In this document: in pieces, positions 3,841 to 63,107 of the stretch
How the letters are laid out: each line of letters opens with the position of its first letter
Numbering within the stretch: the stretch's first letter is position 1
NCBI GenBank assembly: GCA_030699825.1
Contig: JAUYKV010000013.1
Span: 62,001 to 126,000, forward strand
Reading direction: 5' to 3'
Length of the DNA: 64,000 nt
DNA from: Pseudomonas sp.
GTDB taxonomy: Bacteria > Pseudomonadota > Gammaproteobacteria > Pseudomonadales > Pseudomonadaceae
Made by a program: the position numbers and the translations under genes
Notes under the pieces: generated by a model
Database searches by the model: none
Told to the model about the DNA's origin: nothing
The model's input: only the letters and a program-made list of their open reading frames with translations

Positions 3841-4973
3841 CGCGGCACTCCGGGCATTTGCTCGACCACATGCAGTCGGCTGCGCTCGGTCAGCGCCTTT
3901 TCGCGATAAACCACCACCTGGGCGCCGCTCTCGAGCCCTGCTGCGACCTGCACCCAGCCGTCCAGATCGGCGGCGCCGAGGCTGATGGGGGTGAACTGCA
4001 GGTCGCGATCGATGACCTGCCATACGCCGATACGGCCGGCCTGATAGCTGACTGCCGCATTGGGAAGCACCGGGGCCGCCGCAAGGGCGGGCAAGGCAAC
4101 GCTGACTTCGGCCAGCTCGCCAATCGACGGCAGGGCCTGCGCTGGAGCCTCGAACGCCACCTTGGCGAGGATTTCCTCGGTCACCGCGTCGGCCATGGGC
4201 TCCACGCGCAACACCCGGCCGTCCAGCGCCTGGCCGTTGCGCGAACGCAGCACAATGCTTGCCGGCAGGCCGGCCTCGAGCTTCGAGGCGCTGATCTGGT
4301 CGAAGCGTGTGTTGATCCACAGGCTGTCCGGGTCGATCAGTTCAATCACGGCCTGGCCCGCGACTATGGTCGTGCCCGGGTCGGCGTTACGCGCGGCGAC
4401 CACCCCGTCTGTCGGGGCGATCAGGCGCAAATTGCGTCGCTGCGCCACGAGTGCCTGGTAGTCGGAAGCGCCGCGCGCGAGGTCTTCGCGCGCGGCGGCT
4501 AGAACCGCATCGGCGATCTGCAGTTCCTGGCGCTTGGTACTGATGATTTCCTCGCTGGTCATGCGCTTGGCGAACAGTTTCTCGAAACGCTGTGCCTGGG
4601 ATTGCGCATAGCGGCGCCGTGCCTCGGCCTCGCGCAATACGGCTTCGGCGCGCTTGGCTGCCGCTTGCTGTGAGCGCACGCGCTCATCGAGATCGACCGG
4701 CTCCATTTCACCGAGCACCTGGCCGGCCTTCACCCGGTCGCCCACCTGCACATCCAGCCGTTTAATTCGCCCGGTCAGGGTGGGGCCGATCTTGTAGGTG
4801 TAACGTGCCTCGACCGTACCAATGCCGAACAGAGCAGGGCTGAGCGAGCGATCCTGCACGGTTGCCAGCGTCACCGCCACCGGGGCGAGGGGGCCGGAGC
4901 TCAGGCCGACATAGACGAACAGCGCGAGCAGCGGGACGAGCACCGCCAGGAGCGCCAGGGTGCGGCGTGTCAT
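3837..4973 (-). CDS. HlyD/RND-type periplasmic adaptor (membrane fusion protein)
   Basis: Signal anchor, lipoyl-like half motifs (RIKRLDVQVGDRVKAGQVLGEME; LIAPTDGVVAARNADPGTTI), coiled coil. Confidence 0.9.
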   Translation of the reverse strand: MTRRTLALLAVLVPLLALFVYVGLSSGPLAPVAVTLATVQDRSLSPALFGIGTVEARYTYKIGPTLTGRIKRLDVQVGDRVKAGQVLGEMEPVDLDERVRSQQAAAKRAEAVLREAEARRRYAQSQAQRFEKLFAKRMTSEEIISTKRQELQIADAVLAAAREDLARGASDYQALVAQRRNLRLIAPTDGVVAARNADPGTTIVAGQAVIELIDPDSLWINTRFDQISASKLEAGLPASIVLRSRNGQALDGRVLRVEPMADAVTEEILAKVAFEAPAQALPSIGELAEVSVALPALAAAPVLPNAAVSYQAGRIGVWQVIDRDLQFTPISLGAADLDGWVQVAAGLESGAQVVVYREKALTERSRLHVVEQMPGVPR

Positions 4974-5581
4974 TGCGCTGCGCTCGCGATGGCGCGCCGA
5001 TAAAGCGCAAACGCCCTGGGCGCATCCTCACGAATGCGCGCCACGTCCCCGGCCAGCATGGACTGCATGACCAGGCCCTGGATGGTGCCGATGAACAGCG
5101 TGGCCGCCGCCTGGCTATCCAGGCTGGCGCACAGCTCGCCGCAGGCCTTGCCCTTCTCGATGCAGCAGTGCAGACGCTCGCCGTAGCGTTGAATCAGGGT
5201 CTGTACCATGCGCTTGGCGGCCGTGCTTTCAGCGCGCTGAAGCTCGCCAAAGATCATGCGCGGCACCCCGGGGTGCTCGGCGACGAACTCGATATGGCTC
5301 ATGAACATGGCCTGCAACGCGGCCAGGGGCGATTCGATGCCGTGCGCGGCCCGGTCGACCCGAGCCAGGAGGCGCTCGGCAACCCACTCCATGACCGCCT
5401 GCCAGATGGCCTCCTTGTTCGGGAAATGACGGAACAAGGCGCCTTGGGTCAGCTTCATGTGCTTGGCGATTGCCGAAGTGGTGATCTCGCTGGGGTTTTG
5501 CGAGCCGGCCAGCTCAATCACCGCCTCGACCGTCACGGCCCGTCGTTCATCGGCGGGCAGGTGCTTCGATTGGGTATCCAC
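4970..5581 (-). CDS. TetR/AcrR-family transcriptional regulator
   Basis: N-terminal HTH: EITTSAIAKHMKLTQGALFRHFPNKEAIWQAV; heads the exporter operon. Confidence 0.92.
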   Translation of the reverse strand: MDTQSKHLPADERRAVTVEAVIELAGSQNPSEITTSAIAKHMKLTQGALFRHFPNKEAIWQAVMEWVAERLLARVDRAAHGIESPLAALQAMFMSHIEFVAEHPGVPRMIFGELQRAESTAAKRMVQTLIQRYGERLHCCIEKGKACGELCASLDSQAAATLFIGTIQGLVMQSMLAGDVARIREDAPRAFALYRRAIASAAQ

Positions 5582-5594
5582 TAGCGTGCTCCTC

Positions 5595-5626
5595 GGCTAA
5601 GATAGTAATCGATTACTATCTTAGCC
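5595..5626. promoter_or_regulatory. Perfect 32-bp palindrome, candidate TetR operator
   Basis: ggctaagatagtaatc|gattactatcttagcc; the arms are exact reverse complements; 14 bp upstream of the tetR start. Confidence 0.85.
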
Positions 5627-21773: not shown

Positions 21774-21845
21774 GTAGCCCGGATAAGCCTTAGCGCAATC
21801 CGGGGCAGCGGCTTCCCGGATTGCGCCGGGGCTTATCCGGGCTAC
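21774..21845. repeat. Paired inverted REP-like element
   Basis: gtagcccggataagccttagcgcaatccggg...cccggattgcgccggggcttatccgggctac. Confidence 0.8.
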
Positions 21846-35659: not shown

Positions 35660-36850
35660 TTACAAACCGCCAGCGGCGCGCAGTTCGGCGGCCTTGTCGG
35701 TTTTTTCCCAGGTGAAGGCGGTAAAGATGTCGTCGTCGACGGTCATCTCGAGCGGGGTGCGGCCGAAGTGGCCGTAGGCCGCAGTGGCCTGGTACATCGG
35801 GTGCAGCAAGTCGAGCATCCGGGTGATCGCGTAGGGGCGCAGGTCGAAGTGCTCGCGTATCAGCTGGATGATCTTGTCGTCGCCGATCACGCCGGTGCCG
35901 AAGGTGTTGACCGAAATCGAGGTCGGCTGGGCCACGCCGATGGCGTAGGACACCTGGATCTCGCAGCGCTCGGCGAGGCCCGCGGCGACGATGTTCTTGG
36001 CCACGTAACGACCGGCGTAAGCCGCCGAACGGTCGACCTTGGACGGGTCCTTGCCGGAGAAGGCACCGCCGCCGTGACGGGCCATGCCGCCGTAGGTGTC
36101 GACGATGATCTTGCGCCCGGTCAGGCCGCAGTCGCCCACCGGGCCGCCGATGACGAACTTGCCGGTCGGGTTGATGTGGTACTGGGTGCCCTTGTGCAGC
36201 AATTCGGCTGGCAGGGTGTGCTTGACGATCAGTTCCATGACCGCTTCCCGCAGGTCGGCCTGGCTGACTTCCGGGTTGTGCTGGGTCGACAGCACCACCG
36301 CGTCGATGCCGACCACCTTGCCGTTTTCATAACGGCAGGTGACCTGGGATTTGGCGTCCGGGCGCAGCCACGGCAGCAGGCCGGACTTGCGCGCTTCGGC
36401 CTGGCGCTCGACCAGGCGGTGGCTGAGGACGATAGGCGCGGGCATCAGTACGTCGGTTTCGTTGCTGGCGTAGCCGAACATCAGGCCCTGGTCGCCGGCG
36501 CCCTGGTCTTCCGGTTTGGCCCGGTCGACGCCCTGGTTGATGTCCGGGGACTGCTTGCCAATGATGTTGATTACGCCGCAGGTGGCGCCGTCGAAACCCA
36601 CCTCGGAGCTGGTGTAGCCGATGTCGCAGATGACGTCGCGGACGATCTGCTCGAGGTCGACCCAGGCGCTGGTGGTGACTTCGCCGGCGACAATCGCCAC
36701 GCCGGTCTTGACCAGGGTCTCGCAGGCCACGCGGGCGTGTTTGTCCTTGGCGATGATGGCGTCGAGCACCGCATCGGAGATCTGGTCGGCGATCTTGTCC
36801 GGATGGCCTTCGGAGACAGACTCGGAGGTAAAGAGGGAGTATTCGCTCAT
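35660..36850 (-). CDS. metK: S-adenosylmethionine synthetase
   Basis: [45 protein letters not shown]. Confidence 0.98.
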
Positions 36851-36869: not shown

Positions 36870-37883
36870 TTACCGGTGGGTGAGAGCGGCCCGTGGGCCA
36901 TTGTGTTGATCTGGTTTGGCGAAGTGCCGCACCTGAATCTGGAAACCATTGCGTAAACCCACGTACAGGCTTTCGCCCGGCGTGAGTCCCGCGGCGACCG
37001 CCCAGCGGGCCAGGTCGTCCTGTTCGAAACCGAGCCAGAGATCGCCGCAGGCTTGCCGGGCCCAGCTCTGGTTGTGGCTGCACAGCTCGGTGATCAGCAG
37101 GCTGCCGCCGCTTTTCACCTGCCGGGCCAGTTGCTTCAGCGCCTCGGCGGGGGCGGCGAAATGGTGCAGGACCATGTTCAGCACCACGCAGTCGGCGGCC
37201 GGGTAGTCATCGTTGAGGGCATCGGCAAGTTGCAGCTCGACGTTGCCCAGGCCTTCTTGTTCACAGCGCGTGCGCGCCAGTTCGAGCATCGCCGGGCTGT
37301 TGTCCAGTGCCGTGACCTGGCTGAAGCGATGTGCCAGCTCGGGCAAAAAAGCACCGTCGCCGGGGCCGATTTCCAGGGCCGTGGCTTGCGCTGCAAAGCC
37401 CAGGGCATCGAGCAGCGAGAGCAGGCTGTCGCGGTACTGCGGCAAGCCGGCGATCAGGTCCTGCTGGGCCTGGAAGCTGGCCGCCGAACGGGCGAAAAAA
37501 TCCTGGCTGGCGGCGGCGCGCTGGCCATGCACTTCGGCGATCCGCGCCTGGATAGCGCTGGGCAGCACCAGGGCATCGACTTCATCGAGCAGCGCCGCAT
37601 GCAGGGTGCCGCCGAGCCGCTCGCCTTGGGCTAGGGCGCGCCGGTAGAAGATCGCGTTGCCCTCGCGTCGCGTGGCCACCAGGCCGGCCTGGGCCAGCAC
37701 CTTTAAGTGGTGGCTCATGCCGGACTGGCCGGTGGCGAAGATCTGCGCCAGCTCCAGCACACCGAACGAGTCGTTGGCCAGGGCGCGCAGCACGTTCAGG
37801 CGCAACGGGTCGCCGCCGGCCTTGCACAGGGCGGACAGTTCATCGACGGGCTCGAAACGCAACTGGGGGGCACTCATATTCAT
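36870..37883 (-). CDS. ArsR-family regulator fused to a SAM-dependent-methyltransferase-like domain (SahR-like)
   Basis: N-terminal ArsR HTH (CKAGGDPLRLNVLRAL...TGQSGMSHHLKVLAQAGLVATRREGNAIFY) plus MTase motif LEIGPGDGAFLPEL; immediately upstream of metK. Confidence 0.88.
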   Translation of the reverse strand: MNMSAPQLRFEPVDELSALCKAGGDPLRLNVLRALANDSFGVLELAQIFATGQSGMSHHLKVLAQAGLVATRREGNAIFYRRALAQGERLGGTLHAALLDEVDALVLPSAIQARIAEVHGQRAAASQDFFARSAASFQAQQDLIAGLPQYRDSLLSLLDALGFAAQATALEIGPGDGAFLPELAHRFSQVTALDNSPAMLELARTRCEQEGLGNVELQLADALNDDYPAADCVVLNMVLHHFAAPAEALKQLARQVKSGGSLLITELCSHNQSWARQACGDLWLGFEQDDLARWAVAAGLTPGESLYVGLRNGFQIQVRHFAKPDQHNGPRAALTHR

Positions 37884-37914
37884 AAGCTGGGCAGTCTAGT
37901 CGGTCATTTTTCAT

Positions 37915-37958
37915 CCAGCAATACCAATATCAAAAAGTTTTGATATTGGTATTGCTGG
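37915..37958. promoter_or_regulatory. 44-bp near-perfect palindrome between the ArsR-MTase gene and tkt
   Basis: ccagcaataccaatatcaaaa-ag-ttttgatattggtattgctgg; 21-bp arms are exact reverse complements. Confidence 0.85.
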
Positions 37959-38077
37959 CGCTGAAGCCAGAAAACATTAGCTCTGCGACTATCTGTCATT
38001 GCCCCGGCGGGCTCCGCTGGGCGAAAATGGCCGCCTTTTTCGACCTTCCTGTTGCAAAACCCGTAGGAGATTCAGTG

Positions 38078-40075
38078 ATGCCCAGCCGTCGTGAGCGAGC
38101 CAATGCCATTCGTGCCCTGAGCATGGATGCCGTGCAGAAAGCCAACAGCGGCCACCCGGGTGCCCCTATGGGGATGGCGGACATCGCCGAAGTCCTCTGG
38201 CGCGACTACCTCAAGCACAATCCGAGCAATCCGGGCTTCGCCGACCGCGACCGCTTCGTACTGTCCAACGGTCACGGCTCGATGCTGATCTACTCGTTGC
38301 TGCACCTGACCGGCTATGACCTGGGCATCGAAGACCTCAAACAGTTCCGTCAGATGCACAGCCGCACCCCGGGCCACCCGGAATATGGCTACACCCCGGG
38401 CGTGGAGACCACCACCGGCCCGCTCGGCCAGGGCCTGGCCAACGCCGTGGGTTTCGCCCTCGCCGAGAAGGTCCTGGGCGCCCAGTTCAATCGCGAAGGC
38501 CACAGCATCGTCGACCACTTCACCTACGTGTTCCTCGGCGACGGTTGCATGATGGAAGGCATCAGCCATGAGGTCAGCTCGCTGGCCGGTACTTTGGGGC
38601 TGGGCAAGCTGATCGCCTTCTACGACGACAACGGTATCTCCATCGACGGTGAGGTCGAGGGCTGGTTCACCGACGACACGCCGAAGCGCTTCGAGGCCTA
38701 CGGCTGGCAGGTGATCCGCAATGTCGACGGGCATGACGCCGAAGAAATCAGGATCGCCATCGACACCGCGCGCAAGAGCGAGCAGCCGACCCTGATCTGC
38801 TGCAAGACCACCATCGGCTTCGGTTCGCCGAACAAGCAGGGCAAGGAAGACTGCCACGGCGCCCCGCTGGGTAACGACGAGATCGCCCTGACCCGCGCCG
38901 CCCTCGGCTGGAACCACGGCCCGTTCGAGATCCCGGCCGATATCTACGCCGAGTGGGACGCCAAGGAAACTGGCGCCGCCGCCGAGGCCGAGTGGGATCA
39001 GCGTTTTGCCGCCTACGCCGCCGCCTATCCTGAGTTGGCCAGCGAGTTCAAGCGGCGTATCGCCGGCGAGCTGCCGGCCGATTTCGCCGAGAAGGCTGCC
39101 GCCTATATCGCCGAGGTCGCCGAGAAGGGCGAAACCATCGCCAGTCGCAAGGCCAGCCAGAATGCGTTGAATGCCTTCGGCCCGCTGCTGCCGGAATTCC
39201 TCGGCGGCTCGGCGGATCTGGCCGGCTCCAACCTGACCCTGTGGAAAGGCTGCAAGGGCGTATCTGACGCCGATGCCAGCGGCAACTACATGTTCTACGG
39301 CGTGCGCGAGTTCGGCATGAGCGCGATCATGAACGGTGTCGCCCTGCATGGCGGCTTCGTGCCGTACGGCGCGACCTTCCTGATCTTTATGGAATACGCG
39401 CGCAATGCCGTGCGCATGTCGGCGCTGATGAAAAAGCGCGTGCTCTATGTGTTCACCCACGACTCCATCGGTCTTGGCGAAGACGGCCCGACCCACCAGC
39501 CGATCGAGCAGCTGGCCAGCCTGCGCTGCACGCCCAACCTCGATACTTGGCGTCCCTGTGACGCGGTGGAGTCGGCGGTGGCCTGGAAATACGCGATCGA
39601 GCGCAACGACGGCCCGAGCGCGCTGATCTTCAGCCGGCAGAACCTGCCGCACCAGTCGCGTGATGCCCGACAGTTGGCTGATGTGGCACGCGGCGGCTAC
39701 GTGCTCAAGGACTGCAATGGCGAGCCGGAGCTGATCCTGATCGCCACTGGTTCGGAAGTCGCTCTGGCGGTCGCCGCTTACCAGCAGCTGAGCGCGCAAG
39801 GTCGCCAGGTGCGCGTGGTGTCGATGCCGTCGACCAGCGTGTTCGATGCCCAGGACGCCGGCTACAAGCAGGCGGTGCTGCCGGTACAGGTTGGCGCGCG
39901 GATCGCCATCGAAGCCGCCCATGCCGACTACTGGTACAAGTACGTTGGTCTGGAAGGTCGCGTCATTGGCATGACCACCTTCGGTGAGTCGGCACCCGCC
40001 CCGGCGCTGTTCGAGCACTTCGGCTTCACCGTCGAGAACCTGCTGGAAACCGCCGCCGAGCTGCTGGAGGCCTGA
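38078..40075 (+). CDS. tkt: Transketolase
   Basis: [53 protein letters not shown]. Confidence 0.97.
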
Positions 40076-63068: not shown

Positions 63069-63107
63069 ACGCCTTTCATCCCGATGCTGGATCGGGATGA
63101 AAGGCGT
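63069..63107. repeat. Perfect 17-bp-arm hairpin with 5-nt loop
   Basis: acgcctttcatcccgat-gctgg-atcgggatgaaaggcgt. Confidence 0.85.

Follow-up and report, generated by a model that had tools for sequence, protein, structure and literature searches.

SahR is a repressor that is relieved by S-adenosylhomocysteine (SAH). SahR regulons have been reconstructed for eight of eight Pseudomonadaceae; the SahR core includes metK and sahR, and the motif of the gamma type is ATC-N10-GAT (PMC4239095). The P. aeruginosa gene PA14_07110/PA0547 has been named sahR (PMC7950407). SamR of Xanthomonadales has the same architecture, a related palindrome and metK among its targets, but it sits with metH1/metH2, has a larger regulon and is ~30% identical to SahR; it has been argued to respond to SAM, since it controls metK but not other SAM-cycle genes (PMC4239095). 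The SAH riboswitch (RF01057) occurs in the same genomes as the regulator studied here and also controls SAM-cycle genes; unlike the DNA operator at the sahR locus, it is an RNA element, located before ahcY on another contig. A different kind of precedent is quasipalindrome correction: template switching during replication converts imperfect inverted repeats into perfect ones in E. coli (PMC7202029) and yields multi-base compensatory changes (PMC8794818).

The 64-kb stretch of Pseudomonas DNA analysed here (the window) contains a locus that shares with the Pseudomonadaceae SahR regulon (PA0547/PA14_07110; PMC4239095, PMC7950407) the ArsR and methyltransferase domains, the location upstream of metK, the ATC-N10-GAT palindrome and the autoregulatory position, and differs from the published cases in the additional length that mirrored outer arms give its site. 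Since PA0547 has already been called SahR and the Pseudomonadaceae regulons have already been reconstructed, the regulator is not new. Our best explanation of the locus, held as a whole at a probability of about 0.72, is that the gene is the Pseudomonas version of the known SahR, an ordinary regulator that has for the most part been described before; only the covarying outer arms would surprise a specialist.

The sahR gene and its presumed operon

The sahR gene (36870–37883, minus strand) encodes a protein of 337 residues with an ArsR-type helix-turn-helix (HTH) and a SAM-dependent methyltransferase-like domain. Domain searches place the HTH at residues 24–71 (HTH_20/HTH_5) and a class-I SAM methyltransferase fold at approximately residues 156–277, with motif I reading EIGPGDG. 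None of the structure matches to solved proteins spans both domains, the best being single-domain methyltransferases and ArsR repressors. Orthologs are present in all 35 of the other same-genus genomes searched (73–84% identity), and the named records retrieved with the protein are nearly all from Pseudomonas and Stutzerimonas, the nearest being P. aestuarii, P. borbori and their relatives.

The metK gene (35660–36850, minus strand; methionine adenosyltransferase, TIGR01034, 608 bits) starts 19 nt past the sahR stop codon and is presumably in the same operon; the gap between the two genes is mostly −4 to 20 nt across loci. The ArsR HTH–methyltransferase fusion on the same strand upstream of metK, described in the first-pass annotation, is thus borne out by domain matches and gene order, and its assignment as a SahR-like regulator of metK is supported by the domains, the gene order, the motif and genus-wide conservation. 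An assignment to SamR was considered and rejected: the association with metH1/metH2 was not found, and the locus sits between metK and tkt in a Pseudomonas. PA0547 presumably occupies this same position between metK and tkt in P. aeruginosa and is, by gene order, a putative ortholog.

Core operator, predicted promoter and the divergent tkt gene

A perfect 44-bp palindrome (37915–37958) precedes sahR, with the sequence CCAGCAATACCAATATCAAAA-AG-TTTTGATATTGGTATTGCTGG. Its arms (37915–37935 and 37938–37958) are each 21 nt long, are 100% complementary and are separated by a 2-nt spacer, as the first-pass annotation had it, although the distance to the sahR start is 31 bp (37884–37914) and not the 32 bp given there. 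No other perfect inverted repeat with a short spacer is as long anywhere in the 64-kb window, where the next have 17 and 16 bp. The palindrome had been taken whole as the operator, but only its centre is conserved: the conserved portion is the central 24 bp, CAATATCAAAAnnTTTTGATATTG, and the ~10 bp at the outer end of each arm differ from lineage to lineage. The core operator ATATCAAAAAGTTTTGATAT (37927–37946) is the predicted SahR dimer site and fits the gamma-proteobacterial consensus (PMC4239095); within it, ATCAAAAAGTTTTGAT constitutes a 20-bp palindromic site of the ATC-N10-GAT type. The centre, TATCAAAACTTTTTGATA, is identical in 108 of 132 distinct upstream regions, the remainder being close variants, and the predicted site is found upstream of sahR in every Pseudomonas compared. 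An intrinsic terminator and a known structured RNA were also considered for the palindrome and rejected, as it has no terminator-like combination of GC-rich stem and T run and the window has no Rfam match at gathering thresholds.

The predicted promoter of sahR lies immediately downstream of the core on the minus strand. Its -35 box, TTGCTG (37916–37921), is within the sahR-side outer arm, with the TTGC conserved at 99–100% in 124 Pseudomonadaceae loci, and its -10 box, TAGACT (37893–37898), follows after a 17-bp spacer and ends 9 nt before the ATG. The arrangement TTG-NNN-TTGC-N17-TAGACT is conserved downstream of the core; among the 124 Pseudomonadaceae loci TAGACT is exact in 122 and the spacer is 17 bp in 121, and the pattern is present in 123 of the 132 upstream regions. 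Because the predicted -10 box ends only 7–10 nt ahead of the ATG across these loci, the sahR–metK mRNA is probably leaderless or near-leaderless, starting within a few nucleotides of the ATG. This predicted leaderless or near-leaderless arrangement (37881–37898 in the window) is kept over 120 loci, although sahR heads the metK operon.

The core operator is situated at about -41 to -60 relative to the predicted start and abuts the -35 region, and this fixed operator–promoter spacing argues that it acts on the sahR promoter. We envisage that dimeric SahR would bind this single 20–24-bp operator beside the -35 box of the sahR promoter and thereby set sahR–metK transcription, so that a change in SAH would change binding and adjust SAM synthesis. 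A location just upstream of -35 is unusual for simple repression, which makes activation by SahR possible, and the position is compatible with either sign of regulation.

The divergent neighbour is tkt (38078–40075, plus strand; transketolase, TIGR00232, 1018 bits), and it had been proposed that the palindrome also regulates tkt together with epd, pgk and fba. A shared operator serving both sahR–metK and tkt would suit the divergent arrangement, with tkt less than 400 bp away in 96 of 132 loci, and a bound dimer could in principle influence both sides. However, the spacing is constant only toward sahR, being exact to its promoter in 121 of 124 loci, whereas the distance to tkt is 124–282 bp in some loci and ~2.3 kb in others, and the operator is also kept where tkt was not found. 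Among the 36 loci without tkt within 400 bp, 14 have it ~2.3 kb off, behind a LysR gene; in the rest it was not found in the flanks examined, which were 2.5 kb or 1.5 kb long and very short in two. Furthermore, an alignment of the window's clade reveals that tkt has a conserved promoter-like element of its own, TTGCCC-N18-GAAAAT (37999–38028, plus strand), which lies 40 bp beyond the palindrome and stays beside tkt even where other genes separate tkt from the operator. As the operator persists without a nearby tkt and the promoter-like element moves with tkt, control of tkt by the operator appears unlikely, and control of the genes downstream of it more so; we therefore regard a shared operator as distinctly improbable and tkt as probably a bystander.

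In P. peli, a TDT-type transporter gene (identified by reading) and a LysR gene intervene before tkt, and the LysR reading frame ends within the palindrome. The same pair separates tkt from the sahR operator in scattered members of Pseudomonas (locus L119, 308–2454; also L116, L150, L161, L121 and L140), and in L119 the left arm and core of the palindrome encode the C-terminal residues of LysR (STSKSNIKTF). A mirrored, tkt-facing -35 box in the left arm was considered as a promoter and rejected, since the clade has no plausible conserved -10 box at the proper spacing.

Regulon size, the ahcY riboswitch and the ligand

The window's genus normally has one genomic site, compared with a published SahR core of ahcY, metH, metF and metK across all Proteobacteria (PMC4239095). 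The operator pattern ATATCAA-N6-TTGATAT was scanned for in 120 Pseudomonas genomes, with the reversed pattern as a control; it is present in all 120, usually exactly once, and the control mostly gives no site. Additional one-mismatch sites are sporadic and their sequences are unlike between most genomes. The window's own genome has no second site with up to one mismatch; it is 79% complete, so that a further site could be missed, and complete relatives likewise show none that recurs. The wider regulon envisaged earlier, with the same site at ahcY, metF and metE, was therefore not recovered, and with the pattern occurring usually once in the 120 genomes and once in our own, SahR in Pseudomonas appears to regulate its own gene and metK from a single site. 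This result concerns the size of the regulon and not membership of the SahR group.

In place of an operator, ahcY has the SAH riboswitch: the single RF01057 element of the own genome lies directly before it, and the riboswitch is present in 13 of 13 genomes of the genus and in none of six genomes from other families. Recycling of SAH by ahcY would thus be handled apart from SahR. A genome of another family that lacks the riboswitch (G036, locus L195) has tkt divergent from sahR–metK–ahcY, consistent with SahR having once covered ahcY; in the simplest scenario, ahcY would have left the SahR operon in Pseudomonas and come under the riboswitch. Two one-mismatch sites in G036 were set aside as not being beside methionine genes; by reading of the sequences, one lies between aminotransferase-like and aldehyde-dehydrogenase-like genes and the other beside flagellar genes. 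Scanning the other families with two mismatches returned mostly background. The claim concerning the methionine cycle is accordingly narrowed: the Pseudomonas SahR is apparently confined to one site, serving its own gene and metK, with SAH recycling under the riboswitch, so that two SAH sensors would split the methionine cycle in this genus.

The methyltransferase-fold domain would form the ligand pocket of SahR, and the ligand is probably SAH. A response to SAM, as in SamR, or an active methyltransferase domain is the less favoured reading, although one of some weight: the only target remaining in Pseudomonas is metK, but the Pseudomonadaceae protein has been published as SahR (PMC4239095), and the riboswitch-free relative G036 has ahcY, the gene most tied to SAH, in the same cluster. 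SAH is thus retained as the more probable ligand.

Mirrored outer arms of the palindrome

Perfect covarying stems are usually taken as proof of a functional RNA structure, and the outer arms of this palindrome urge caution in reading genomes in this way: such stems here lie in apparently untranscribed promoter DNA, have several independent origins and are best explained by a mutation process. Extended arms, taken as those with 11 or more additional paired positions beyond the 18-bp core, are present in 20 of 132 loci. Most belong to the window's clade, where 15 of 16 members have them, and the others are five further loci (L006, L032, L109, L143 and L186). The extended-arm label requires six changes on the protein tree, at least five of which are forced by supported branches; the outer 13-bp arms are palindromic in some lineages only and have several independent origins. 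Over the 132 loci the arm pairs have 527 paired positions versus 422 ± 12 in shuffles, an excess inflated by the relatedness of the loci, so that more weight is placed on the tree count and on the slid control, in which 42.6% pairing in register falls to 22–29%.

The sahR-side arm, which holds the -35 box, is promoter sequence common to non-palindromic relatives, and for this reason the tkt-side arm is likely to be a derived mirror copy of it. In the extended lineages the GCAA/TTGC blocks are mirrored, and three variable positions lie between these fixed blocks. Eight different states of these positions occur among the 20 extended sites, every one of which has all three perfectly paired. The three variable pairs show 19 two-sided changes and no one-sided change across 14 distinct sequences, totals that describe a set chosen for extended arms (one partial) and not a random sample. 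Within the window's clade the left, right and joint triplet states each need six changes, the equality of which means that no broken intermediate is seen there.

Mirrored blocks could signify that the outer arms provide additional protein contacts, either for two SahR dimers or through a longer operator. We give this little credence: the three positions between the blocks vary freely and yet remain paired, for which a sequence-reading protein has no need, and most species lack the block on the tkt side. The main rival holds that selection maintains the long palindrome as a hairpin in DNA or RNA (a cruciform near -35, an attenuator or a processing signal), the compensatory changes then reflecting selection. 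The compensated arm changes themselves, the retention of long arms in 15 of 16 clade members and the strong folding of the intergenic region (single-strand z = -5.1, with none of 200 shuffles equally good) speak for such a hairpin. However, most Pseudomonas that share this operator and promoter lack it, it has neither a T-run terminator nor an Rfam match, and no G–U intermediate occurs at the three covarying positions in the 14 distinct sequences. Moreover, the predicted start points of sahR and tkt are both outside the palindrome and neither predicted transcript covers it, bearing in mind that the promoter boxes are assigned by consensus and that an upstream gene or an unseen promoter could give a transcript that crosses it. 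Selection for a hairpin is thus considered unlikely, although less so than additional protein contacts.

Recurrent template-switch copying appears to be the best explanation of the outer arms, because it accounts, with no function invoked, for the perfection of the arms, their repeated origin and the coupled changes. The extra 10–13 bp on each side of the 44-bp palindrome would not be required for binding, and template switching during replication at the operator hairpin would have produced the mirror copy of the promoter arm and maintained its perfect match in some lineages. Perfect arms, multi-base compensated changes and repeated independent origin are all observed, the inverted repeats being made more perfect as in quasipalindrome correction (PMC7202029, PMC8794818); the present case differs in that the process is deduced from sequences at a transcription-factor operator over genus-level divergence and not observed as mutation. 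We advance only tentatively, at somewhat less than even odds, the broader proposition that template switching recurrently lengthens the regulatory palindromes of transcription factors in bacteria and preserves their perfection, giving RNA-like covariation in non-transcribed DNA, or, in a stronger form, that the long arms adopt a DNA structure with a tuning effect on the SahR promoter.

Three other inverted repeats were noted in the window. A 17-bp perfect inverted repeat with a 5-nt spacer (ACGCCTTTCATCCCGAT) lies at 63069–63107 and is without a T run, and an imperfect, REP-like repeat (GTAGCCCGGATAAGCC...) lies at 21774–21845. A 32-bp perfect palindrome (5595–5626; GGCTAAGATAGTAATC/GATTACTATCTTAGCC) is located 13 bp upstream of a TetR-like gene (4970–5581, minus strand) that precedes a gene for an efflux-type membrane fusion protein, both identified by reading; it is probably the operator of the TetR-like gene and the second unusually long perfect operator palindrome of the window.
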